Origin: Pseudohalioglobus sediminis
GTDB taxonomy: Bacteria > Pseudomonadota > Gammaproteobacteria > Pseudomonadales > Halieaceae
Length of the DNA: 64,000 nt
Assembly: GCF_008370495.1 (NCBI RefSeq)
Contig: NZ_VTUX01000004.1
Coordinates: 186,001 to 250,000, forward strand
Direction of reading: 5' to 3'
Shown: positions 1,283 through 36,933 of the stretch, in pieces
Numbering within the stretch: the stretch's first letter is position 1
How the letters are laid out: each line of letters starts with the position of its first letter
Notes under the pieces: generated by a model
What the model saw: the letters and a program-made list of their open reading frames with translations, nothing else
Databases searched by the model: none
Told to the model about the DNA's origin: nothing
Program-made: the position numbers and the translations under genes

Positions 1283-2552
1283 TGGCTTCTGCGCTCGTGG
1301 TTGGTGCCTGGGCCGCGGGAATGCGGTTCAGTTCGAGATCATTTGGCGGGTTGTGCACACACCAGGTCCCGGCTGGATGATAGATGTAGGCGACACAGGC
1401 GTTGCAGTTGTCACAGCCTGACTCAGTCAATTCCCCGCTGCGGAATTTGTTGACCAGGGCTGGATCATGAATCAGTGCACGGGCCATCACCACGCAGTCG
1501 AAGCCCTCGGCCACCAGTTGTTCGGCATTGGCGAGGGACTTGGCGCCGCCCACATAGGCCAGGGGTATCTGCACTGCAGCGCGGATGCGGCGGGAGTTTT
1601 CCAGAAAGTACAGCTCCCGGAAGGTGACCTTGCGCTCGCTGGAGGCGGCGGCCTTCATCATCAGCGCCGTCAGCCGCTCACCCTGGGATTTCAGCACCCG
1701 GCTGATGGCTTCACGGTTCATATTGCTGCCAAACATGTACCAGGTGGACTCGACATTGCGACCGCCGGAAAGCACCAGCATGTTCGCGCCGGCCCGCTCC
1801 AGCGCTTGCGCGGTGATAATGGAGTCTTCTACCTGGGTGCCGCGGCTGATGCCATCCGCCACACTGATTTTTGCCAGCACCGCCAGGTCATCGCCCACCG
1901 CCTGCCTGACGGCGGCCAGTACGCGAGCCGGAAAGCGCACGCGGTTTTCCGCGCTGCCGCCATATTCATCACTGCGCTTGTTGCTCAGTGGGGATATGAA
2001 CTGGTTCAGCAGGTAGCCATGTCCCATGTGCAGTTCAATAGCGTCAAAGCCGGCCTCTCGGCAGAGTTGTGCCGCACGCACAAACTCGTTGATAACGCGG
2101 GTCATGTCCTCTTCATTCATTGCGCGGCTGAAAAAGTTGCCCTTCAGGGCCCCTGCCGCATTGAAGCCACCGGAGGAACTGATGGTCCGTCCCTTGACTT
2201 TCATGCCCGTCACGAATGATCCGCCATGGGTAAGCTGGGCGGAGATAGCACCGCCCTCTTCATGCACGGCGTCGGTGAGAACCTTGAGGTCGGGCAGTGC
2301 CTCCTCGCGCATCCATATCTGGTTGGGCAGTGTGCGCCCCTCGGGGGCGACTGACATGTAGGCGACCGTCGTCATTCCCACGCCCCCGGCGGCAAGCTCG
2401 CGGTGATGCCTGACCAGCGCCCTGGTGGGTTTGCCATCTATGCACATGGCTTCGTTGGCGCCGGACTTCACAAAGCGATTGCGCAGGGTGATTGGGCCGA
2501 TAGTTACTGCATCAAAAGGATTCGGGGCAGCAGTCATGGGCAGGGCTTCCAT
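1272..2552 (-). CDS. Old-yellow-enzyme family NADH:flavin oxidoreductase with cysteine cluster
   Basis: A 426-residue protein with the TIM-barrel old yellow enzyme fold: the HMGHGYLLNQFISP block, then SDEYGGSAENRVRF, both family hallmarks for FMN and substrate binding. Near the C-terminus are four cysteines (C380, C383, C386, C398) spaced like the 4Fe-4S ligands of 2,4-dienoyl-CoA reductase. The protein stops soon after them and lacks the FAD/NAD(P)H domain that FadH-type enzymes carry. Such enzymes reduce activated C=C bonds. It overlaps the monooxygenase gene downstream, so the pair may act in sequence on the same compound. An in-frame ATG at residue 6 (2537) is a possible alternative start. 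Confidence 0.88.
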   Translation of the reverse strand: MEALPMTAAPNPFDAVTIGPITLRNRFVKSGANEAMCIDGKPTRALVRHHRELAAGGVGMTTVAYMSVAPEGRTLPNQIWMREEALPDLKVLTDAVHEEGGAISAQLTHGGSFVTGMKVKGRTISSSGGFNAAGALKGNFFSRAMNEEDMTRVINEFVRAAQLCREAGFDAIELHMGHGYLLNQFISPLSNKRSDEYGGSAENRVRFPARVLAAVRQAVGDDLAVLAKISVADGISRGTQVEDSIITAQALERAGANMLVLSGGRNVESTWYMFGSNMNREAISRVLKSQGERLTALMMKAAASSERKVTFRELYFLENSRRIRAAVQIPLAYVGGAKSLANAEQLVAEGFDCVVMARALIHDPALVNKFRSGELTESGCDNCNACVAYIYHPAGTWCVHNPPNDLELNRIPAAQAPTTSAEANAT

Positions 2553-2718
2553 CTGGTCAGGTTCAATACCGGGATAATAGCAATCTGCCTACCCGGCGAG
2601 TGAGTCTTTCGCCGAGCGGGAACCTCACGGTTCAACAATGCAGGCGAAACGAGGCCTGTCCGGCCGCGATGCGGAACATGCCCGGCGCACCTGCGCGCGG
2701 GCCCGGGCCAGGTGTGCA

Positions 2719-3645
2719 TCAAAGCCGGAAATCGCTGATCTGGATTTCCGTACCCGCATCGGCGTAGTCGCCCGCCGCACGGCCGGCACGGAATTCCCCC
2801 CAATTGATCGGCCGGTAGTGTGGCGCGGCACCTTGCAGGGCGCCAGGCAGCGGCGCGTATACGGTATCGTATCCGGGATTGAGAAAGAACGGTGCGCTGT
2901 AACGCGAATGCGCGGCATTGGCCAGGACACGGTGCAGCGGCGCCCGGTAGCGATCATTGGACCAGACCTGGACAATATCCCCGATGTTGATGATCAGTGC
3001 GCCGGGCTCCGCCAGCACCGTGTGCCATTGCCCTGCTCGAAAAAACTGCAGCCCGGGCTGGGCATCAGGTAGCAGCACCGTGAGCGCCCCGGCGTCCGTG
3101 TGGTGGCTGATGCCCAGGTGCCGGTCCGGTTCACCACAGGGCGGATAATAATTCAGGCGAAGGAAGCTGGAGTGGCCCTCGCCAAATTCGCTCTCCAGTT
3201 TTCCCCTCGGCACACCCAGGCATTCACCAATGTCGGCCAGCAGGGTCAGGGCCAGGGCCTGGTTGGCGGCAAAGTGCGCCTCCATGGTTGCCCTGAAACC
3301 GGGAAGCTGCGCCGGCCAGCGCGTCTGCGCGCCGCTGAAGGGGCCCTGCGCAGACGCGGGCCCGATATCGAGAATCTGTTTCCAGTCGCGCACATTCTTG
3401 GTGAGCTCCCGGTCGTAAAACCCCCAGGGGTTGGCGGCCGTGCGCTCGATGTCCAATTTATCCTGGTGGGGCAGCGCGAAGAACTGCTGCATGCCGGACA
3501 GCACGCTGCGGCAAAGCTGGGCTCCCAGAGGGTGATTGCTGAGCTGAAAGCAACCCCATTCCCGGCAGGCGGCGTCCAGCGTGTCCAGCCAGCCGGTCTC
3601 TCCGCGCCGGGTGAAATCGAGTGTGGGCACCGCCTGTGATTGCAT
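2719..3645 (-). CDS. 2-oxoglutarate/Fe(II)-dependent oxygenase (isopenicillin-N-synthase-like)
   Basis: A 308-residue enzyme of the 2OG-Fe(II) oxygenase superfamily. The non-haem iron triad is visible: H182 and D184 in SHHTDAG and H238 in PLHRVL. The 2-oxoglutarate-binding arginine is R248 in SRYSAPFF. The DIOX_N region precedes it (WGCFQLSNH). I place the start at the ATG at 3645, not the upstream in-frame codon at 3681, because a GGGAG ribosome site lies 8 bases before it. It likely hydroxylates or desaturates a small molecule; the substrate cannot be told. It follows the divergent protease gene at 3737 and is not tightly linked to the genes downstream. Confidence 0.88.
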   Translation of the reverse strand: MQSQAVPTLDFTRRGETGWLDTLDAACREWGCFQLSNHPLGAQLCRSVLSGMQQFFALPHQDKLDIERTAANPWGFYDRELTKNVRDWKQILDIGPASAQGPFSGAQTRWPAQLPGFRATMEAHFAANQALALTLLADIGECLGVPRGKLESEFGEGHSSFLRLNYYPPCGEPDRHLGISHHTDAGALTVLLPDAQPGLQFFRAGQWHTVLAEPGALIINIGDIVQVWSNDRYRAPLHRVLANAAHSRYSAPFFLNPGYDTVYAPLPGALQGAAPHYRPINWGEFRAGRAAGDYADAGTEIQISDFRL

Positions 3646-3736
3646 TGTTCGTCTCCCGACGCATTGACGCAGGGCTAGCATTATAGAAGCAGGTGGACAC
3701 GAGTGGGAGCCAGTCAGACCCTGCTATGATGATGGC

Positions 3737-4939
3737 ATGAATCAGCAAGCATCAACGCCGGGCGGGCCCGATCCGTCGCCGGCAGAACGCCGTGGGCTGG
3801 AGCTGGGCAGTGTGTTCGGTATTCGCATCTGCCTGGACTCCAGCCTGATCCTGATCTTCGCACTTATTGTCTACCTGTTGGGCGCGAACGTGTTTCCCGG
3901 TTGGCACCCGGAGTGGCCCGGCGTCACGACGTGGACGACGGCCGCCATCGCCGGCGTGATGTTCTGCGTCTCGGTGCTGGCCCATGAACTGGCGCACTCA
4001 CTGGTGTCCCTTGGCTTCGGTGTGCAGGTCAAGCGTATCACCCTGTTCCTGTTCGGAGGCCTGGCGGAGATCGAGGAGGAGCCGCCGACGCCGCGGGCGG
4101 AGTTCCTGATTGCCATTGCCGGTCCCCTGACCAGCCTGTTTATCGGTGTTGTCTGCATCCAGGTCGCGACCGCTTCCGCGGGCGTGGAGCTGGTGGAATT
4201 GCTTGCCCAGGGACAGGAAGAGGCCCTGGCTGAACTGTCGCCATTGGCAACCCTGTGCCTGTGGCTGGGGCCGTTCAATATTGTCCTCGGGCTTTTCAAC
4301 ATGGTTCCGGGTTTCCCCCTCGACGGCGGGCGGGTGCTGCGCGCCCTGCTGTGGTGGCTCTCTGGCGACCAGCGTCAGGCCACCCGTATCGCCTCGGCCA
4401 GCGGGCGCATCTTTGGCTGGATGCTGATGCTGCTGGGGGTGATGCAGGCGGTTTCAGGGGCGGTCATGCAGGGTCTGTGGCTGGTGCTGATTGGCTGGTT
4501 CCTGTCTCATGCCGCCTCCAGCAGTTATAGCCAGATCGTTATCCGCGACCTGCTGCGCGGGGTGACTGCCCGGCAACTGATGCGCACTCACTTTGAGACC
4601 GTGTCACCGCAGACCCGGGTCAGCGCGTTCATCGATGACTACCTGCTGCAGAGCGCGCAGCTGCTGTGGCCGGTAGTGGAGGGCGAGCAACTGGTTGGCC
4701 TGCTCACACTGGAAGAGGTGCGCAAGGTGCCGGAGGATGACAGGAGTGTGGTGACCGTGGGCCAGGTGATGCATACGCAGCTCGGTCGCTACACACTGGC
4801 CCCGGATAGCGATGCCCAGAAAACCCTGGCAGCCCTGTCTCAGCACGACTCGCCCATGGCCGTGGTGGAGGGCGGCCGCGTGTTGGGGCTGCTGTCCCAG
4901 GTCGACGTCGTCAAGTGGATGCGCCTGCACGATCTTTAA
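3737..4939 (+). CDS. Site-2 protease family (M50) intramembrane metalloprotease with CBS pair
   Basis: A 400-residue membrane protein. Zinc ligands are in HELAH (H83, E84, H87) inside a transmembrane helix, with the third ligand in NMVPGFPLDGG (N188-D196), the second signature of S2P proteases. Several hydrophobic helices span residues 30-260. The C-terminal 130 residues (from about 270) form a pair of CBS domains, which usually bind adenosine nucleotides and tune activity. The architecture matches the Rip/SpoIVFB-like S2P-CBS subgroup. A target membrane protein is not evident from the neighbours. The ATG start fits the translated N-terminus; the gene is divergent from the 2OG oxygenase. Confidence 0.92.
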   Translation: MNQQASTPGGPDPSPAERRGLELGSVFGIRICLDSSLILIFALIVYLLGANVFPGWHPEWPGVTTWTTAAIAGVMFCVSVLAHELAHSLVSLGFGVQVKRITLFLFGGLAEIEEEPPTPRAEFLIAIAGPLTSLFIGVVCIQVATASAGVELVELLAQGQEEALAELSPLATLCLWLGPFNIVLGLFNMVPGFPLDGGRVLRALLWWLSGDQRQATRIASASGRIFGWMLMLLGVMQAVSGAVMQGLWLVLIGWFLSHAASSSYSQIVIRDLLRGVTARQLMRTHFETVSPQTRVSAFIDDYLLQSAQLLWPVVEGEQLVGLLTLEEVRKVPEDDRSVVTVGQVMHTQLGRYTLAPDSDAQKTLAALSQHDSPMAVVEGGRVLGLLSQVDVVKWMRLHDL

Positions 4940-30226: not shown

Positions 30227-30337
30227 GTCCCGTCCCGGCGCAAGCCAGGGCGGCGCGGGAAAAAACCATTGCAAGCGTACCGCAACAGTCGGCGCTGTTG
30301 GCGTTGCGGTTAGCGGCGCCGACCGCTGCAGCGCGGT

Positions 30338-30892
30338 CTACTGCGAGAAGGCAGTCAGGTTGACCACCGCCCCGCCAGTGGGAACCAGGCAGGAAACAGT
30401 AGCCTGCGCCGAGGGTGGCAGCAGGTTGGGCGACGGGTTGGTAATGCTCCACTCGAACACCACGCCGAAATTCAGTGGCCCCAGCACCGCGTTCAGTTCC
30501 GGGTCGCTATCGAGTGACGCGGTCGTCCCGCTGATATTGCTCGACTGGTACTCGAGCGTTGACCAGTTGAGAAATCTCAGTCGGCAAGTGAAGCTCTGCC
30601 CCTGTTGGTCGCTGCCGGCCACCAGTATCACGCCGAAAGTGTCTTCAAGGCTGCTGGTAACAGGCGTCGCCACCGGGCACAGCATCCATAAATCCTTGTC
30701 GGGATGTTTGTTGACGAGTCCATACCAGCGGCGCTCCATGCGGTGGCCCTGGTTGGCGAAGAAGGGGTCACAGATGCTGCCGTTATGCATGGTGAAGGTT
30801 TGGCCAAGCGCTGTGCTGGAAAATAACGTACCGGAGATTGCTGTTAGCGATGTCAGAACGACACTATTCAGAACCAGAGCCACTTTCTTCAT
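30338..30892 (-). CDS. Secreted protein of unknown function
   Basis: A 184-residue protein with a signal peptide (hydrophobic VALVLNSVVLTSLTAISGTL, cut near ALG-QTF). The mature part has four cysteines (in SICDPFF, LWMLCPVA, SFTCRLRF and TVSCLVPT), suggesting two disulfides, and is rich in Ser/Thr and beta-type residues. I recognise no family. It is divergent from the C-terminally anchored protein at 31258 across a 365-base gap. It could be an extracytoplasmic beta-sandwich protein. Confidence 0.72.
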   Translation of the reverse strand: MKKVALVLNSVVLTSLTAISGTLFSSTALGQTFTMHNGSICDPFFANQGHRMERRWYGLVNKHPDKDLWMLCPVATPVTSSLEDTFGVILVAGSDQQGQSFTCRLRFLNWSTLEYQSSNISGTTASLDSDPELNAVLGPLNFGVVFEWSITNPSPNLLPPSAQATVSCLVPTGGAVVNLTAFSQ

Positions 30893-31257
30893 GAGAACAC
30901 CTGCCCGCGAATTGCTTGGATTTCCCGTTAACCGGTCTCTAATCCACGGCCCCGCTGACCAGATGCCCGCATGCGATGCACACCCAACCAGCCTGGATTC
31001 TTAAAACAAACCTAGTATAAATCAGGCTTTTTGCAACTTTTGCTCGCGTTCATCCGGCACGAAGAGGACACGCATCAGTGGGTTTAACGGGGCGACCTGT
31101 ACAGTATTTCAGCCGGTGCGGGCGGTGGCGGTTTTATCCTTCCGCGGGATGTACTGGCGTTCTTGCCTTGACATCCGCAAGACGCACGGGGTATGAAATC
31201 ATTCAGGGATGTGAGCACAACAGAATAAAAGGCGTTAATAGGCGCAAGGGCGTGTAG
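30893..31257. other. Divergent intergenic region between two secreted-protein genes
   Basis: About 365 bases with no credible gene. An AT-rich stretch near 31000-31035 (with CTAGTATAAAT) looks like a promoter zone for one or both divergent genes. I see no strong inverted repeat or known riboswitch. Confidence 0.35.
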
Positions 31258-32097
31258 GTGAACATTTCGGGAACCTGGCTATGCCGAGGAATGATCCTGC
31301 TGCTGTTACAAGCTGGCATGGGGCAGGCTGCCGAATTCGTGCCAGATGAAGATTTTGCCCTGCATACGCTGTTGAACCTGCTGGCGACTGCTGAAGCGAG
31401 AATCGATCGCACCAGTGCGTCGCTGTCGACCCAGGCCCTGGCCGAGATCACCTTGCTTGATGCGCCGGCCTTCCTCGATGGTGCGAGCGAGGCCAATGCC
31501 GGTGCCCTGCTGCAGCTGGTGCCCAACGGGACAGAGCGGTTCGGGCAATGTGTACAGGTCCAGTACACATACAGCAATATCCTGAGCAGCAGTGCACAGG
31601 GCGCCGAGCTGCAGGCCTCCGCATCTCTCGGGACCGAGCCGCTGCGTTTCCAGGGGCAGGTGTTGGCGCAAACCGCGACTGCCATACCGGCGGGCGGCAC
31701 ACTGCGAACCGGACTGACCGATACCATTGATTACTACAACACCGAAGGCCAGTGCCGCATCGCCTTTATGGGGCCCGGTGATATCAATACCACCGACCAG
31801 AGTGAATTGACGATGAGTGAGAGCTTCGTCGCGCGAATCGGTGACCGCATCCGTATCAGCATCGGTTCGGCTGCTTTTGTCGGTGGGCGGGGGACGGGGC
31901 AATCGAGTGCAGCATCCACCACGAGCCTGCTGATGGAGATTGTCAGCGCTGAAGCCTTCAGCTGCAGTGCTCCGCCACCCTGCAACATCCCGCCAGTAGT
32001 GCCCGTCGCCAATCGTTGGTTGTTGGGCATCATGGCATTACTTCTGGCCTGTGCGGCGGCGGCCTCCCTGGTCGGGCGTCGGGACAGGTTTTCCTGA
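31258..32097 (+). CDS. Secreted protein with C-terminal membrane anchor resembling an exosortase sorting signal
   Basis: A 279-residue protein. A signal peptide is followed by a mostly beta-type, Ser/Thr/Ala-rich region with cysteines (ERFGQCVQV, EGQCRIAFM, AFSCSAPPPCN). The end has three parts: a Pro-rich patch VVPVANRW, one hydrophobic helix (LLGIMALLLACAAAASLV) and the basic GRRDRFS. This resembles IPTL-CTERM/PEP-CTERM-type sorting signals. No exosortase gene is in the window. AAGGG precedes the GTG by 8 bases. It converges with the outer-membrane barrel gene at 32140, with only 42 bases between their stops. Confidence 0.75.
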   Translation: MNISGTWLCRGMILLLLQAGMGQAAEFVPDEDFALHTLLNLLATAEARIDRTSASLSTQALAEITLLDAPAFLDGASEANAGALLQLVPNGTERFGQCVQVQYTYSNILSSSAQGAELQASASLGTEPLRFQGQVLAQTATAIPAGGTLRTGLTDTIDYYNTEGQCRIAFMGPGDINTTDQSELTMSESFVARIGDRIRISIGSAAFVGGRGTGQSSAASTTSLLMEIVSAEAFSCSAPPPCNIPPVVPVANRWLLGIMALLLACAAAASLVGRRDRFS

Positions 32098-32139
32098 CCC
32101 GGCGATACGGGCTTGCCACTGGTGCAGCGATGCCAACTG

Positions 32140-33312
32140 CTACCAGAAGCGCATGGGCAGGCTGAAACTCAGGGTGTAGTCAGGTGAGTCCGTGGTGAGG
32201 CCAATACCCGCATTGAACGACAACAGCGTTCTGCGCCCCAGGACAGAGGACGCGCCAAATAGCAGCAGGCTGGATCTGGCATCGCTGCCTTCCAGTTCTG
32301 TGCCCCCTATCTTGAGTTCCTGCTCAAACGTCTGTGCAATGGCAATTGAAAGTGAGGTCTCCGGACTGGCAGCCAATGAAGCGCCCAGCGTGATGTTGAA
32401 CTGCTGGCCGGGCTGTATGTCATCCTTTTCTTCCGCGTATCGATAGGAGATATTGGCGGTAAAGGCCAGCGGATCCTGCCGTTTCAGCGCACTGAAAGCC
32501 AGTTCGTATTCATTGAAGCCGATGCCCAGGGGTACACCGCCATCGCTGCGGTCGCCCGTATCCGTATCCCAGACCAAACGCCCGATCACATCAGGCCACC
32601 AATGGTCTTCGCGCAGAAGGGTCTTGGCGACTCCGACCCTGACGTCGCCAAAGGATGAACCGGAGTTGCTTGTATGGACAGTTGGCACACCGCCCACCAG
32701 GGTTTTGGTGTCCTGCTCTACATAACGGTAGGGGATGCTCAACTCTAGCTGGGTGTCAAAGGGTAAACCGACGGCTGCGTTGATGCCGGAGCTGAACTCA
32801 TCGCGTTCTACACGCAGGTTGCTTACGGCCACATCGTTTGGCAACAGGGTAAATATAGGGATATCCGTCTCGTTGCGGGCGTAGCTGGTGAATGGCGTTA
32901 TTTCGAATACGCGGTTGGGTAGCAACAATGCGCCCTGTATCACCAGCGTGCGCTCAAGCGCACGGTCCGCTGCCCGCTCGTCCACCATAACCACGCCGGG
33001 CCCCGCAGGAGGTTGCCCCTGCGGTGTTGCCGTTTGCGCCGGTGCGCCAGCAACGGCAGGTGCTGCGGCTTTGGTTTCTGGCTGGGGTGCGGGTGCGCTC
33101 GGCTTACCACCCTGCGCCCGCTCAAGTTGCTCTACGCGCTGGAGTAATTGCTGGATGATGACATCACGTTTGCGTAACTCTTCCTGCAGCAACGCATCGG
33201 AATCGGTGTCGGCCAGTGCACTCGTGGCGCAAAAGCTACCTGCCGTCGCAGCGATAACCAGCGCTGCTGCCGGGCGGTGACCGTGAAACGCTAGGTATCG
33301 TTTGCTTGCCAT
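32140..33312 (-). CDS. FapF-like outer-membrane protein: coiled coil plus beta-barrel
   Basis: About 390 residues. A signal peptide (cut near SALA-DTDS) is followed by a short coiled coil at about 40-66 (LQEELRKRDVIIQQLLQRVEQLE) and an Ala/Pro-rich linker (70-106). A long beta-strand region of alternating residues ends in an aromatic residue (MRFW), the outer-membrane insertion signal. This order of N-terminal coiled coil, linker and barrel matches FapF, the amyloid export pore, whose barrel falls in the phenol-MetA family. AAGGA precedes the ATG at 33312. It follows the C39 protease gene on the same strand, so it is probably the export channel for the small secreted proteins at 34307 and 34969. 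Confidence 0.78.
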   Translation of the reverse strand: MASKRYLAFHGHRPAAALVIAATAGSFCATSALADTDSDALLQEELRKRDVIIQQLLQRVEQLERAQGGKPSAPAPQPETKAAAPAVAGAPAQTATPQGQPPAGPGVVMVDERAADRALERTLVIQGALLLPNRVFEITPFTSYARNETDIPIFTLLPNDVAVSNLRVERDEFSSGINAAVGLPFDTQLELSIPYRYVEQDTKTLVGGVPTVHTSNSGSSFGDVRVGVAKTLLREDHWWPDVIGRLVWDTDTGDRSDGGVPLGIGFNEYELAFSALKRQDPLAFTANISYRYAEEKDDIQPGQQFNITLGASLAASPETSLSIAIAQTFEQELKIGGTELEGSDARSSLLLFGASSVLGRRTLLSFNAGIGLTTDSPDYTLSFSLPMRFW

Positions 33313-33353
33313 GAGCACATCCTTGATTTCTGGCTTCGCAGTCTCTCGCTATC

Positions 33354-33381
33354 AGCATAGACCAGCCGTCATTAAGTGCAA
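33354..33381 (-). promoter_or_regulatory. Possible sigma-70 promoter for the FapF-like gene
   Basis: On the minus strand, TTGCAC (33381-33376) and TATGCT (33359-33354) are separated by 16 bases, about 42 bases before the ATG at 33312. Each hexamer has two mismatches to consensus. The 180-base gap between the protease and barrel genes makes a second promoter reasonable. It is weak evidence. Confidence 0.3.
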
Positions 33382-33493
33382 TAAAGCGCCTGCGCGTGAC
33401 ATGCGTTGGTCGCGTCCCGACCTTGCCTTTGCGCCGCCAGTTTTTGCCGGAGATCACCAGCGCTCTTGCCAGGTTGATGCTTGCACTGAACCT

Positions 33494-34216
33494 TCAGTTG
33501 AGCGTGACGAAGTCGCTCTCCCGCGGCGCCAGTTGCGCCGGCGGATGACCCGCTGGCTTGCCTTTATGGGCGACCACAAAGCCCACCCTGCCGAGGTCAA
33601 GGTAATCGATCCATACGCGCTCGAAGCGGGCCAGTGTCATCGTTCGGTTGCCCCAGGCCGGGTCGGCCAGCAGCACCCTGTCACCCAGGCGCCCGCGAAA
33701 TATCACGAAGTGGTTGTAGCCAGTGATATTGACCGGGATCAGCACGGGTGCCCGGCGCTCCAGATCCTGCAGGCTCATGCCGCCGAATCCCATGCCGAGG
33801 TAACCCCTTTTATCCACGTAGCGTTTCAGGTCCAGCAGCGAGAAACCCTGCCTCAGTTGCACCAGTATCGGGTTGGCGATGTAGACGTCGCGATTGATTA
33901 GCCCGGTCGCTACCTCACGCTCTGTGACAGTGTCGCCAAACTGGTATTGCAACAGGGTGGTCAGCGCCGCCGCGCCACAACTCAGGTCCCAGTTTTGCAT
34001 GACGACACCGTCGCGTCGTAACTCCAGCAATGAGGTCACAGTGCGCTGGGCGTCGCCGCGTGAACCGGCGCCGAATGACGCGAATGGCGCAGCCAGGATC
34101 AGCAAAAAGACGAAAGCACATAAAAAAAACTGCACGGGGAAGAGGGGGGCGCATGGTTTTGCCGGTGAGCAGGTGCCCCCCGGGCTGCAGCGTGTTGTTG
34201 GTCTGGGCAGTCTCAC
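33494..34216 (-). CDS. Exported C39 family cysteine protease (FapD-like)
   Basis: A 240-residue protein as read from GTG 34216. A hydrophobic export segment (residues 28-48, VQFFLCAFVFLLILAAPFA) precedes the C39 protease domain: oxyanion Q74 and nucleophile C80 in QNWDLSCGAAAL, H169 in GYNHFVIF, and D185 in LLADPAWG. C39 proteases cut after double-glycine-type leaders. Stand-alone exported forms such as FapD occur with functional-amyloid export genes. The true start is unclear: a GTG at 34135 would begin exactly at the signal peptide, and an 8-base A/T run lies there. It sits between two leader-bearing secreted proteins and the FapF-like barrel, so processing them is its likely job. Confidence 0.85.
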   Translation of the reverse strand: MRLPRPTTRCSPGGTCSPAKPCAPLFPVQFFLCAFVFLLILAAPFASFGAGSRGDAQRTVTSLLELRRDGVVMQNWDLSCGAAALTTLLQYQFGDTVTEREVATGLINRDVYIANPILVQLRQGFSLLDLKRYVDKRGYLGMGFGGMSLQDLERRAPVLIPVNITGYNHFVIFRGRLGDRVLLADPAWGNRTMTLARFERVWIDYLDLGRVGFVVAHKGKPAGHPPAQLAPRESDFVTLN

Positions 34217-34242
34217 GGCCTTTCACCAGGCCTGCGAAAATG

Positions 34243-34277
34243 CCCCACAGGCCACCCGTGACCGGGTGGATGTGGGG
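34243..34277 (-). terminator. GC-rich stem-loop between secreted-protein gene and C39 protease
   Basis: Arms CCCCACA/TGTGGGG (34243-34249 and 34271-34277) and CCACCCG/CGGGTGG (34252-34258 and 34263-34269) stack with a small internal loop and a 4-base loop. On the minus strand a short U-run (ATTTT) follows within 2-3 bases. It looks like a leaky intrinsic terminator or processing site that would lower protease and barrel expression relative to the substrates upstream. Confidence 0.5.
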
Positions 34278-34306
34278 CGATAGGGCTGGGCATTTCCCGG
34301 CAACTA

Positions 34307-34804
34307 TCAGGTCGGGTTGGCCAAAGCCGCTGCAGAGGCAGCTGTGCTTTGTGCCGCTGTCGGGAAGCCGAACAGTATCGATGCAGCGATCGACGTGTTA
34401 GCCGCAGCGGCGGCCGCTACCGGCAGCGCAGCGATGGTGTCTGTAGCCGTTTGTGCGGCGCTCACAGTGTCAGACAGCAGACTGCCCTGGGTGGCACCCG
34501 CAGCTTCACCCACGGCAATCGCGGTGCCGTCGGAAGTAGAGGCCGCTCCGGCCTGGGCCACCGACAGTATGTCGTAGATGGCACCCAACTGCCCGACACC
34601 GAGCGAGACAGCCTGTACCGTGGTTGTGGTCGCAGTTTGCGTAGTGGTTGCCACGTTGCCCAGGGCCTGAGCCACGGCTTCGGCTAACGCGGAGCCACCG
34701 GCGCTGACACCGTCCATCTGTGCGGATGTCAGGGGTTGCTCTGCGCTTGCGGCTGCGGACAGTACGACGATGGATGCTGCGGTAAGGTTACGTAAAAAGT
34801 TCAT
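34307..34804 (-). CDS. Small secreted Ala/Thr-rich protein with double-glycine-like leader (substrate B)
   Basis: A 165-residue protein. A Sec signal peptide (cut after AASA, about residue 21) is followed at once by LTSAQMDGVSAGG (25-37), which resembles the LSxxELxxVxGG leader cut by C39 proteases. The rest is low in complexity: Ala, Thr, Ser, Val and Gly with no cysteine or lysine, including a TTTQTATTTT stretch and ALGNV. AAGGAG lies 7 bases before the ATG. It is located directly upstream of the C39 protease gene. I infer an exported structural or amyloid-like polypeptide; no family is recognised. Confidence 0.75.
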   Translation of the reverse strand: MNFLRNLTAASIVVLSAAASAEQPLTSAQMDGVSAGGSALAEAVAQALGNVATTTQTATTTTVQAVSLGVGQLGAIYDILSVAQAGAASTSDGTAIAVGEAAGATQGSLLSDTVSAAQTATDTIAALPVAAAAAANTSIAASILFGFPTAAQSTAASAAALANPT

Positions 34805-34860
34805 GATGTTTCTCCTTGGAGCAAGCTCCTTTTTTTGCTTTCTACTTCGGTCTTTTTAGC

Positions 34861-34876
34861 GGCGCCAGGTGGCGCC
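34861..34876 (-). repeat. Hairpin between the two secreted-protein genes
   Basis: GGCGCCAGGTGGCGCC forms 7-base arms around 2 bases. A smaller inverted repeat GGAGCAAGCTCC (34818-34829) lies just before the ribosome site of the next gene. Neither is followed by U-residues on the minus strand. They may mark mRNA processing or stabilise the transcript of this small operon. Confidence 0.4.
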
Positions 34877-34968
34877 ATTGGTGACCCTGCCTTTGTGCAG
34901 ATCACCCGTTCCTACCACGTCGCAGGGCGTGCGGTAGAAAACTCTCGCTCAAACACGCGGTTCACCGC

Positions 34969-35475
34969 TTACCTGTTGAGCGCTTGATACAGATTTGTGG
35001 CGAGGATTCCGACCGGTTGCACCGACGAATACACGCTCAGCTGGGTATTGCCAAAGCCCACGGACCAGAAAATGCGCGCGCCGAACGGGCTCAGTCCGCT
35101 GCCGTCCTCGCCATTCTCACTGACGGAGATCGACGTGCTGCGGCTGCTGTCGCCTGTTGCATGGGCCCGCGCTCCCAGGATGGTGACCGCGTTGAAACCA
35201 CTGCCGAAGACTGCCGGGGTGGGATTTCCCGCCGCCACCGCCGCAACGGTATTGGTGCCGGCAATAGACATGTTCCCGATAGCTTCTGCCGCGGCGGTAA
35301 TCGCTACCACCGGGTCGGATTCGAGATTCACGATGCCGGCGGTAACAGCGTCAAGTTGCGGCGCGCTCAGTGCAAACATTGCGCTGTCATCATCAGCAAA
35401 AGACAGCGCAGATAGCGCGCTTGCGAGAGCAATAACCAGTGGGGTTTTAAACCTGTGGGGAGTTGAAGTGCGCAT
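34969..35475 (-). CDS. Small secreted protein with double-glycine-like leader (substrate A)
   Basis: A 168-residue protein with a Sec signal peptide (hydrophobic 11-27, cut near SFA-DDD). It then has LSAPQLDAVTAG (36-47), which aligns with LTSAQMDGVSAG of the neighbouring protein. After it comes a similar segment, AEAIGNMSIAGTNT against AQALGNVATTTQT. The C-terminal half is beta-type (ILGARAHATGDSSRSTSISV, then ARIFWSVGFGNTQLSVYS). GGGAG lies about 8 bases before the ATG. It is the first gene of the operon that ends with the FapF-like barrel, and I infer that it is a secreted substrate of that machinery. Confidence 0.75.
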   Translation of the reverse strand: MRTSTPHRFKTPLVIALASALSALSFADDDSAMFALSAPQLDAVTAGIVNLESDPVVAITAAAEAIGNMSIAGTNTVAAVAAGNPTPAVFGSGFNAVTILGARAHATGDSSRSTSISVSENGEDGSGLSPFGARIFWSVGFGNTQLSVYSSVQPVGILATNLYQALNR

Positions 35476-35520
35476 AGTGATTCTCCCTGAATCCTTGTCT
35501 TTGTTCTGCTCCTGAACACC

Positions 35521-35545
35521 GTGCTTTCTTTATTACAAGAAGCAC
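35521..35545. promoter_or_regulatory. Inverted repeat upstream of the secretion operon
   Basis: GTGCTTTCTT (35521-35530) and AAGAAGCAC (35537-35545) pair with one bulged base around a 6-base AT-rich centre, 46 bases before the start of the first secreted-protein gene. It could be an operator or a 5'-leader hairpin. No regulator gene is adjacent. Confidence 0.4.
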
Positions 35546-35997
35546 TCCTGCTAACCATCAAGGTAGTATCTGCCAAGCACTACTGTGCGAGTTTCCTGTG
35601 AATTTTTGGTGACCGCCGAGCGCAAAAAACCGCGTATTCTTCCCTTTGGCGATAACAGGGATGTGGCAAGGAAGTGCCTGGAATATAAAGAGGGAATTAT
35701 GAAGGTTTTGTTACAGGAACTGGCTGCGCCGAAGGAATGGTTGCGCAGTAAATTGTGCGCACATGCTGTTGCTTCGGACTGCTTTCCGGGGGAGAGGCCG
35801 CACCTGCGATGGCATGACCGGGTCCACGTATTCGCCAATTGACGCTGAGGGCTGAGAAGCGCAGCGACGGGTTGCGCTGTAAGTCGTGCCTGCAGATCGT
35901 GACCTGGGGTTCGCAGAGCCTGGTGTTTTCGCAATGCGGGCCAACGGGGCTTACTCGGCCGCTTCTGCGTCCTTGCTGTCGGGCCCTGCGGTCGCAG
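35546..35997. other. Intergenic region upstream of the secretion operon
   Basis: About 450 bases between the first secreted-protein gene and the cyclase-family gene. A 47-codon frame on the plus strand (35699-35842) has an AGAGGGA site just before its ATG and could be a small protein (MKVLLQELAAPKEWLRSKL at its start). It shows no recognisable domain, so I do not call it a gene. The promoter of the secretion operon must lie in the left part. Confidence 0.35.
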
Positions 35998-36933
35998 TTA
36001 GCGAATGGCCACCGGGTTGATGATCATCTGCACGGCACCGCGGATCTTGGCCTGACCCAGAACAAAAAGGAATTCATGCGCACCGTCGCGCACCAGCGGA
36101 CCGGTGTTCATGGTTTCCAGCAGGTAGATACCGCTCTCTTTGAGCAGGATTACATGTCCCGGGAAGGGTGCGTTGGCATCCACTGCCGGAATCACGTCTA
36201 CCCCCCAGGTATCCGCGCCCACGGCGACAACGTTTTTTCCCGCCAGGTAGTGCGCAACACTGGGATCTATTCCCGGTTCAGCCGCCACCCACTCTTCTGG
36301 TGCTGACTCCAGCTTGGCATCTGTCCAGCCGGTGTGGAACAGCACCACGTCACCCTCGCGCACCGCAGTGCCCTGCTTTTTTTCCACGGCTTTCACATCC
36401 TCTGCGCTGAAATGCTCACCCGCCTTCAGGTAAGGCACGCCCCGGTAGGCGGCCATGTCGAGGATGATGCCGCGGGCAACCATGGGGGGAACGGTGTGAA
36501 TGCCCAGTTTGGTCAGACCGGTAAACTGGGCGATATCCCTGGCATCGAAACAGTTGTAATGGATGCCGTTCTCGTCACCGATGTGGCCGAGGCCGTCCAG
36601 CTGCGAACCGATGCCAAGCCAGCCGATGAATACGTCGTCATTGTAGGTGGAATTCGGCATTGCGCGAGCGCCTTGCTGTTGCCCGGGTTGCACCACTTGC
36701 AGGTCGAGACTGCGCGGGGGGAAGGCCGGTGTTGTGCTGTCCACGGTGATGCCCAGGGAATAGGCCTTTCCCGTCCTGACCAGTTTGCTGGCCGCGAGCA
36801 CAGATTCCGCGGTGATCAGATTGGCGTTGCCGATCTCGTCATCCGGCCCCCAGCGTGAGGGCTGGCAGTCCTCTTGCGCGCCACTTACCGCACTCAGCGT
36901 ACATAACAGTACAAAACCCAGTATCCTGCTCAT
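35998..36933 (-). CDS. Secreted cyclase family protein (kynurenine-formamidase-like fold)
   Basis: A 311-residue protein with a signal peptide (MSRILGFVLLCTLSAVSGA). It matches the PF04199 cyclase family: RWGPDDEIGNANLIT near the start, the metal-site region SQLDGLGHIG, then GDVVLFHTGWTD and VGADTWGVDV. Members are metal-dependent hydrolases such as arylformamidase or isatin hydrolase. The substrate here is unknown; it would act in the periplasm. GGGAGGG lies 7 bases before the ATG. The gene shares its strand with the plant-type asparaginase at 37056 but the two are separated by over 120 bases. Confidence 0.88.
   Translation of the reverse strand: MSRILGFVLLCTLSAVSGAQEDCQPSRWGPDDEIGNANLITAESVLAASKLVRTGKAYSLGITVDSTTPAFPPRSLDLQVVQPGQQQGARAMPNSTYNDDVFIGWLGIGSQLDGLGHIGDENGIHYNCFDARDIAQFTGLTKLGIHTVPPMVARGIILDMAAYRGVPYLKAGEHFSAEDVKAVEKKQGTAVREGDVVLFHTGWTDAKLESAPEEWVAAEPGIDPSVAHYLAGKNVVAVGADTWGVDVIPAVDANAPFPGHVILLKESGIYLLETMNTGPLVRDGAHEFLFVLGQAKIRGAVQMIINPVAIR

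Follow-up and report, generated by a model that had tools for sequence, protein, structure and literature searches.

In the Fap pathway, one of the exporters of biofilm amyloid, an exported C39 cysteine protease (FapD) is encoded beside FapF, an outer-membrane barrel with a coiled coil, a linker and a plug. In 2013, FapD and FapF were thought to be members of two larger families (PMC3792158), and in 2018 co-located fapD and fapF homologues were noted in five further phyla (PMC6173800); these and the other papers are cited here from excerpts. In the 2017 paper, the target of FapD was called unclear, the Fap proteins being without canonical C39 sites and FapE its likely target, and only FapE was found to be fully processed at its N-terminus, though FapB and FapC are also exported (PMC5557850). 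A review of 2018 held that the FapD substrate was yet to be determined (PMC6173800), and in a later paper it is FapC that a figure legend gives as the processed protein, the excerpts offering no new evidence (PMC10638192). Here we analysed a stretch of 64,000 nucleotides from Pseudohalioglobus sediminis (assembly GCF_008370495.1, contig NZ_VTUX01000004.1, positions 186,001 to 250,000), called the window below, in which four genes at positions 32140-35475 encode two small proteins (A and B), a free-standing C39 protease and a FapF-type barrel. The locus looks like a representative of a scattered, little-described export pathway for small proteins that carry two successive removable tags, one per membrane. 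We consider it probable that this is a two-membrane secretion pathway with a two-part address, in which a Sec signal is followed by a leader that C39 cuts, the core then leaving through the barrel.

All four open reading frames (ORFs) lie on the minus strand in the order A, B, C39 protease and barrel, as a sequence-only reading of the window had proposed, with intergenic gaps of 164 (A-B), 90 (B-C39) and 175 bases (C39-barrel). The precursor of A (34969..35475) has 168 amino acids (aa), with a Sec-type signal at about residues 1-27, a leader reaching residue 47 (DDDSAMFALSAPQLDAVTAG, encoded at 35335..35394) and a core of 121 aa that is rich in A, S, G and V, has a net charge of -3 and contains no Cys. 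The precursor of B (34307..34804; 165 aa) has its Sec-type signal at about residues 1-21, a leader reaching residue 36 (EQPLTSAQMDGVSAG, 34697..34741) and a core of 129 aa with 30% Ala, 15% Thr, a net charge of -6 and no Cys; in both proteins the family pattern predicts a C39 cut after AG. The C39 cysteine protease (33494..34216; 240 aa) has an N-terminal hydrophobic export signal and is without a transporter domain, and the FapF-type outer-membrane barrel (32140..33318; 392 aa as listed) consists of a signal, a coiled coil, a linker, a helix at the plug position and a beta-barrel. A Sec-like N-terminal stretch was recognised on all four proteins by eye and with a hydrophobicity rule. By eye, AGGGAG precedes the ATG of A and AAGGAG that of B, and the ATG at 33312, with AAGGA ahead of it, is the better start of the barrel. 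For A and B, neither Pfam nor NCBIfam gives a match at E≤1, and the earlier description of non-repeat, Ala/Thr-rich proteins beside a C39 protease and a barrel holds. The window contains every trait by which we define the branch: a C39 protease in the 26-row clade described below, and a FapF-type barrel and proteins with an LTxxQMDxVTAG leader nearby.

The protease matches Pfam Peptidase_C39 above cut-off (1.1e-10), in agreement with the exported C39 protease expected from the sequence alone. Its best named family in NCBIfam is FilB (1.1e-28; 100 of 475 bits, far below cut-off), the C39 protease of the Fil system (FilA/DUF6160, FilB, FilC), and its FapD match is 1.1e-22 (80 of the 330 bits needed); the protease falls in another clade than the Fap-type loci. 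The structural model (28 rows; predicted local distance difference test, pLDDT, 86.0) matches the peptidase domains of PCAT1 and ComA and a double-glycine protease with bound leader peptide (6mpz), and Q74, C80, H169 and D185 are kept in 26 of the 26 clade members. The locus shares the C39 fold with the C39-containing ATP-binding cassette (ABC) transporters of class II bacteriocins and microcins, such as PCAT1 and ComA, as well as a leader that has hydrophobic positions, one acidic residue and, where the cut is expected, small residues; it differs from them in that its protease is free-standing with its own export signal and its leader follows a Sec signal. No ABC transporter domain is fused to the C39 domain, after which the 240-aa protein ends; beyond these proteins, the family scans covered the two next genes only.

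Relatives of the protease are numerous. A contig scan with a 7-row C39 alignment matched at least 592 stretches, at least 587 of them relatives, whereas the window C39 alone found no relative in the same kind of scan, its patterns being too specific. The best 80 of the 587 were kept, so the clade is probably larger than sampled, and these 80 split with a gap into loci L119-L140 (22 loci, E≤5e-60, 52-65% identity) and L141-L198 (E≥3e-39, ≤48%). The 22 loci include Nitrosomonas, Nitrococcus, Herbaspirillum, Noviherbaspirillum, Keguizhuia, Methylobacter, Qipengyuania and alphaproteobacterial metagenome-assembled genomes (MAGs). Within a class-level sample of 369 genomes, which is taken as the same draw for the C39 and the leader searches, 43 have a C39 relative at E≤1e-12; besides the own genome, three of them (G193, G303 and G228) have a C39 copy that is 50-59% identical along most of its length. 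When 137 C39 proteins were placed in a maximum-likelihood tree, the window, these three and the 22 loci formed a 26-row group (support 96/88) that spans alpha-, beta- and gammaproteobacteria; three pairs in it exceed 85% identity, which leaves about 23 independent rows. Loci L141, L142, L143 and L082 join this group (98/89), and a branch with support 99/91 unites the 30 rows with a 35-row Fil-type clade, apart from a 56-row Fap-type clade. The Fil-type clade is so named for DUF6160 neighbours in both loci tested (L176 and L198). Among the members of the Fap-type clade are L034-L036, L089, which has a FapE-like protein (1e-22, below cut-off), L170 and L171; the proteases of the last two match NCBIfam FapD at 1.8e-41 and 1.0e-61, compared with about 1e-34 for six Fil-type C39 proteins; loci with FapD above cut-off were found separately, outside the C39 tree. 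Because the protease scores best with FilB and groups with the Fil-type loci, we place the window locus in a branch that is sister to Fap and Fil and not among the fap operons, although the tree was rooted at its midpoint and its bootstrap was unsettled (0.986), so that the placement as a sister depends on the root. Of the two possibilities raised by the sequence-only reading, the separate branch related to Fap is borne out by a C39 clade of its own, and the simplified branch of Fap has to be given up. Among the openly licensed PMC papers listed in our literature searches, we found no description of the clade, its leader or its multi-substrate loci.

The tree also disfavours a decayed or degenerate fap operon that has lost FapA-C and FapE, which we regard as highly improbable. 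A FapD- and FapF-like pair is present, and according to the paper excerpted, fap operons deviate most often in having a separated fapF or lacking fapA (PMC3792158); however, the C39 proteins form a separate clade with the catalytic residues intact in all 26 members, the FapD and FapF scores are far below cut-off, and the same leader-protein content recurs in distant proteobacteria. A, B and the two next genes give no family match to FapA, FapB/FapC or FapE at E≤1. What the window locus has in common with Fap is a C39 protease with an export signal next to a FapF barrel that contains the coiled coil, linker and plug; it differs in that A and B belong to no FapA, FapB/C or FapE family, the C39 protease falls in another clade, the leader is of an AG type and relatives carry several dissimilar cores per locus. 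Relative to Fil, the window C39 stands beside and not inside the Fil-type clade: FilB is the best-scoring named family for the window protease, and 14 of the 35 loci of the Fil-type clade grouped with it (99/91) have 'LSxxxMSxxTGQAG'-like post-signal elements, whereas the Fil-type leader ends in TGQ and that of the window branch in VTAG. Two Fil-type small proteins match DUF6160 above cut-off and FilA weakly, and A and B match neither at E≤1. Searches of the own genome for FapE and for DUF6160 were empty, but their controls were silent too, and both results carry little weight.

Directly after the signal, small proteins near the clade C39 genes carry a 12-residue element with the consensus L-[TS]-x-x-Q-[ML]-D-x-V-[TS]-A-G, which reads LSAPQLDAVTAG in A and LTSAQMDGVSAG in B; the presence of two leader-bearing proteins had been recognised earlier, and their shared element had gone undescribed. 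With a regular expression that requires a hydrophobic stretch upstream of the element, A and B are the only matches in six frames of the 64-kb window. The same expression gives 69 matches in 23 of the 26 clade loci (362 kb), a count that is partly circular because the expression was written after viewing the window and the clade loci. Widening one position gives 70 leaders in 24 of the 26 loci, one to six per locus, and adds LTDEVLDQITAG of L135; the locus is not a particularly minimal one, as it had been taken to be, since relatives carry up to six leader proteins. The remaining two loci, L128 and L138, have no leader match, and their contigs begin at or beside the C39 gene. All but one of the 70 leaders (69/70) are on the C39 strand, at a median distance of 1.2 kb and a maximum of 6.2 kb. 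D7 occurs in 70, A11 in 67 and G12 in 65 of the 70 leaders, although positions fixed in the expression are conserved by construction, and P stands three residues before the leader L in 53, at a position outside the expression. Information content falls from 4.1 bits at A11 and 4.0 bits at G12 to 1.0 and 0.6 bits at the next two positions. In the 70 cores, of 41-145 aa each, the residues A, S, G, T and V abound and K+R make up 4.1%. Searched against the other loci at E≤0.01, the whole of B matches 18 ORFs (best 4.9e-10) and the whole of A two (0.004 and 0.006); as cores alone, neither protein has a match there. The leader is kept and the cores vary, which indicates a leader-core anatomy; a leader that ends in a pair of small residues before a variable core is of the double-glycine type, with the cut a predicted one. 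The link to small leader-bearing proteins in other genomes, whose absence would have told against the sequence-only reading, is present.

The informative part of the regular-expression result is the contrast with other C39 loci. Among 111 of these (1,589 kb), the expression matched 0 times in 58 loci, once in 37 and 0 times in 16, and the single match belongs to L082, which groups just outside the clade. Reversed DNA gave 0 matches, and 20 triplet shuffles gave 0 on average. A strict motif from the window alone had no match in 17 regions of the family and order, and the C39 genes there belong to other clades. We also built a leader profile from 19 signal-plus-leader stretches, to which G000 (the own genome) and G193 contributed rows and G228 and G303 did not. 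In the whole 4.43-Mb own genome it finds A at 2e-13 and B at 3e-11, with the next best match at 0.129, and four same-genus genomes contain nothing better than 0.073. Of the 369 genomes, in some of which at most 20 candidates were scored, five have a match at E≤1e-3, and four of these are genomes with the C39 clade; the match in the fifth, G340, covers profile positions 1-27 only, mainly signal, and has an internal stop. Full leader matches are confined to the four genomes with the clade, including G228 and G303, and none of the 39 other genomes with a C39 relative is among the matches, which indicates that the leader tracks the clade and not C39 genes at large. A weak leader-like match (8.4e-4) at G193:C1:3005948-3006001, far from the C39 locus, may be an orphan substrate.

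The pore assigned to the barrel in the sequence-only reading is well supported by its layout and fold. The barrel matches NCBIfam FapF at 1.6e-16 (60 of 700 bits, below cut-off) and FilC weakly (9e-4), Pfam PF13557 above cut-off (7.3e-9), and FapF chain 5o68_A among PDB sequences (6e-7). Its AlphaFold2 model, built from 22 aligned loci (mean pLDDT 83.9), has a helix at the coiled-coil position (38-68), a disordered Pro/Ala linker (71-102), a helix at the plug position (114-127) and a beta-barrel (138-391), and Foldseek ranks 18 FapF chains of the PDB first (best E 5.8e-20, 21% identity), ahead of the COG4313 channel 4rl8. The coiled coil, linker and plug of a FapF-type layout are thus present in the model, although the score falls short of the NCBIfam equivalog cut-off. 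The proposed FapD/FapF make-up is seen in homology and in the FapF fold; hidden Markov model matches to both families lie far below cut-off, and FilB is the better match of the protease. The barrel shares PF13557 with the COG4313/MetA-pathway channels, which differ in that they are described as taking up hydrophobic molecules and that the excerpted review mentions no C39 partner for them (PMC6173800). In a quick tree of 117 barrels, the group stays together (24 group rows and 4 ungrouped ones, 96), and since the C39 and barrel trees each keep the group together, the two genes appear to be co-inherited.

The small proteins could also be regulators or plugs activated by the C39 cut, with processed A and B gating the barrel, as has been discussed for FapE and FapF in Pseudomonas. 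This would fit the complete N-terminal processing of FapE alone in Fap, where gating is discussed in the text excerpted (PMC5557850), and the helix modelled at the plug position. However, the leader proteins, as many as six in one locus and with 41-145 aa in their cores, look like cargo and not like a conserved gate, and we consider gating unlikely. Another alternative is a bacteriocin-like or autolysis system, in which a NapP/NapF-type pair releases the cores as peptides; such release has been proposed for the nap island of Neisseria. In that island, NapA-C carry GG motifs and are encoded with a C39 peptidase (NapP) and a FapF homologue (NapF), as far as the published description excerpted here goes (PMC11798529); the leader of our clade resembles double-glycine leaders, and 23 of the 70 clade cores are net positive. 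The same description, on which our comparison is based, presents the Nap peptides as cationic autolysis peptides of <10 kDa with a holin-like NapH (PMC11798529), whereas the cores of A and B, with 121 and 129 aa and charges of -3 and -6, are neither cationic nor of that size, and K+R makes up 4.1% over the 70 cores. A release system of this kind is therefore improbable here.

Secretion of the cores as cargo, which we prefer to gating and to peptide release, leaves room for several roles of the cargo, among them that the cores form functional amyloid or a surface fibre, a matrix system with new subunits. The barrel and protease are related to amyloid exporters, and several short leader proteins per locus in L119, L124 and L134 share a core of the type SPVxVxQI..L..G.GN....SGN..xIxQ, which is curlin/Fap-like by eye. 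A and B themselves contain neither such stretches nor a Fap repeat, and nothing seen at the window locus supports amyloid formation, so that we hold this role as possible, but tentatively and as the less probable case. A and B and one leader protein each from L079, L119, L131 and L137 have no Pfam or NCBIfam family above cut-off; that of L131 is weakly CsgA-like (E 0.028, far below cut-off), and the aligned part includes the signal peptide. In Nitrococcus mobilis and a close MAG, an ATP-grasp protein is encoded between the leader proteins and the C39 gene (L139:6882-7829 and L122:2831-3772). The L139 protein matches GRASP_SAV_5884 at 3e-21, below cut-off, and a RimK domain at 6e-11, above cut-off, and is related to maturases of ribosomally synthesised and post-translationally modified peptides, hinting that the cargo is modified in some loci.

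From these features we infer cleavage, export, the order of the steps and the role of the cores as follows. Judging from their signal sequences, A, B, the protease and the barrel would be taken over the inner membrane by Sec. Removal of the signal peptides would place the LTxxQMDxVTAG leader at the N-terminal end of each shortened precursor or close to it. The periplasmic C39 protease would then grip this leader and cut after AG, as its fold, its catalytic residues and the leader suggest, in a manner analogous to the C39 domains of peptidase-containing ABC transporters on double-glycine leaders. The freed core would pass through the FapF-like pore, whose coiled coil and plug may, by analogy with the FapF fold, act in the periplasm, and would come to lie outside the cell, where it may form a polymer of the surface or matrix.

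Several observations weigh against this interpretation. The clade count is circular in part, as said, and regex-fixed positions cannot count as conserved. Signal peptides were called by eye and hydrophobicity and not with SignalP, and no sigma-70-like promoter was found within 30300-36000. Linkage to the barrel extends beyond the clade: 24 of the 26 clade loci and 102 of the 111 other C39 loci have a FapF-type barrel no more than 6 kb from C39, with weak barrel scores in the type-II loci described at the end, so that the pairing of C39 and barrel is a superfamily-wide trait. L128, with 3.8 kb visible downstream and nothing upstream, has no barrel, nor has the 5.1-kb contig of L132, where two tandem C39 genes (2481-3947) stand beside four leader proteins; in L133, the sole leader match lies on the opposite strand. 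In addition, since only FapE is completely processed at its N-terminus in Fap though FapB and FapC are exported (PMC5557850), the cleavage may be a switch and not a maturation of cargo.

A wider rule may connect these systems. A relaxed leader pattern, weaker than the regular expression in that it flags only 19 of the 26 clade loci, was applied to signal-bearing ORFs. It matches 38 of 98 ORFs within 3 kb of C39 in the clade versus 1 of 47 further away. For the Fil-type clade the numbers are 22 of 102 versus 5 of 79, for the Fap-type clade 17 of 180 versus 0 of 85, and for the ten type-II loci 0 of 23 versus 0 of 11. Some Fap-type matches are plainly due to chance, such as the barrels in L154 and L108, and others resemble textbook double-glycine leaders (LDDDTLDTLRGG in L092 and VSNQELDQLRGG in L107). 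The pattern flags 14 of the 35 Fil-type and 15 of the 56 Fap-type loci, and because most loci of both kinds are unflagged, the wider rule is a lead. The Pseudomonas citronellolis and P. nicosulfuronedens loci have both FapD and FapE above the NCBIfam cut-off, and their FapE proteins carry a comparable element directly after the signal (PIELKDAEMAQLRGR in P. citronellolis and PIELKDQELAQLRGK in P. nicosulfuronedens), a candidate site that gives the idea of FapE as the FapD substrate a testable place. We speculate that a periplasmic C39 protease and a FapF-type barrel make up one broad secretion class, with a Sec signal, a double-glycine-like leader cut in the periplasm and passage through the barrel. 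Fap, Fil, nap and the window branch would be its variants, each with a leader ending (RGG/RGR/RGK, TGQ, GG and VTAG) and cargo of its own, the FapE leader would be the FapD site, and the window branch would be the most cargo-diverse, with interchangeable cores behind one leader; for this wider proposal we see the chances as evenly balanced.

The clade offers a recognition rule that can be tested in the tube, as 24 of the 26 sampled proteases lie near one to six proteins that share a sharp leader, and the locus suggests how related biofilm-amyloid exporters may choose their cargo. The leader also points to unannotated secreted proteins, and if it is sufficient, it would be a portable tag that sends unrelated proteins across both membranes without a dedicated ATP-driven transporter.

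The locus is accessory in its genus, as no C39 relative turned up at E≤1e-3 in any of the seven other genomes of that genus; 15 of the 58 genomes searched, the own genome and near relatives, have some relative at this threshold. A flanking gene is missing from six of the seven genus mates and has 42% identity in the seventh, and the synteny comparison failed. A tblastn search of plasmids gave 75 records, all below 60% identity, and the guanine-cytosine content of the locus (60.0%, versus 60.5% for the window) is uninformative on transfer. Next to the locus, a convergent ORF of 279 aa (31258-32097, plus strand) begins like a signal sequence and has a hydrophobic stretch at its C-terminus with RRDR behind it, a tail that we take to resemble a CTERM sorting tail, and an ORF of 184 aa (30338-30892, minus strand) likewise has a signal-like start; neither ORF has a Pfam or NCBIfam match at E≤1 or a relative among the other C39 loci. 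The own genome holds two more C39 domains, at G000:C21:41801-42175 in an open frame of 745 aa, the size of a C39-ABC exporter, and at G000:C17:214572-214988 in a frame of 409 aa. A second type of C39 locus occurs in the window's own family (L037-L046, for example L043:7799-10134 and L040:1268-3767), its ten rows forming one clade (100/95), and combines C39 with a barrel-like protein of about 255-305 aa that mostly ends in F. The barrel-like and small proteins tested from L041 and L043 have no Pfam or NCBIfam match at E≤0.01. In L037, L040, L042, L043 and L046, and loosely in L044, a small protein of about 110-165 aa carries a 'GxxAPL...DLAL..FWGVYVPNY'-like stretch.

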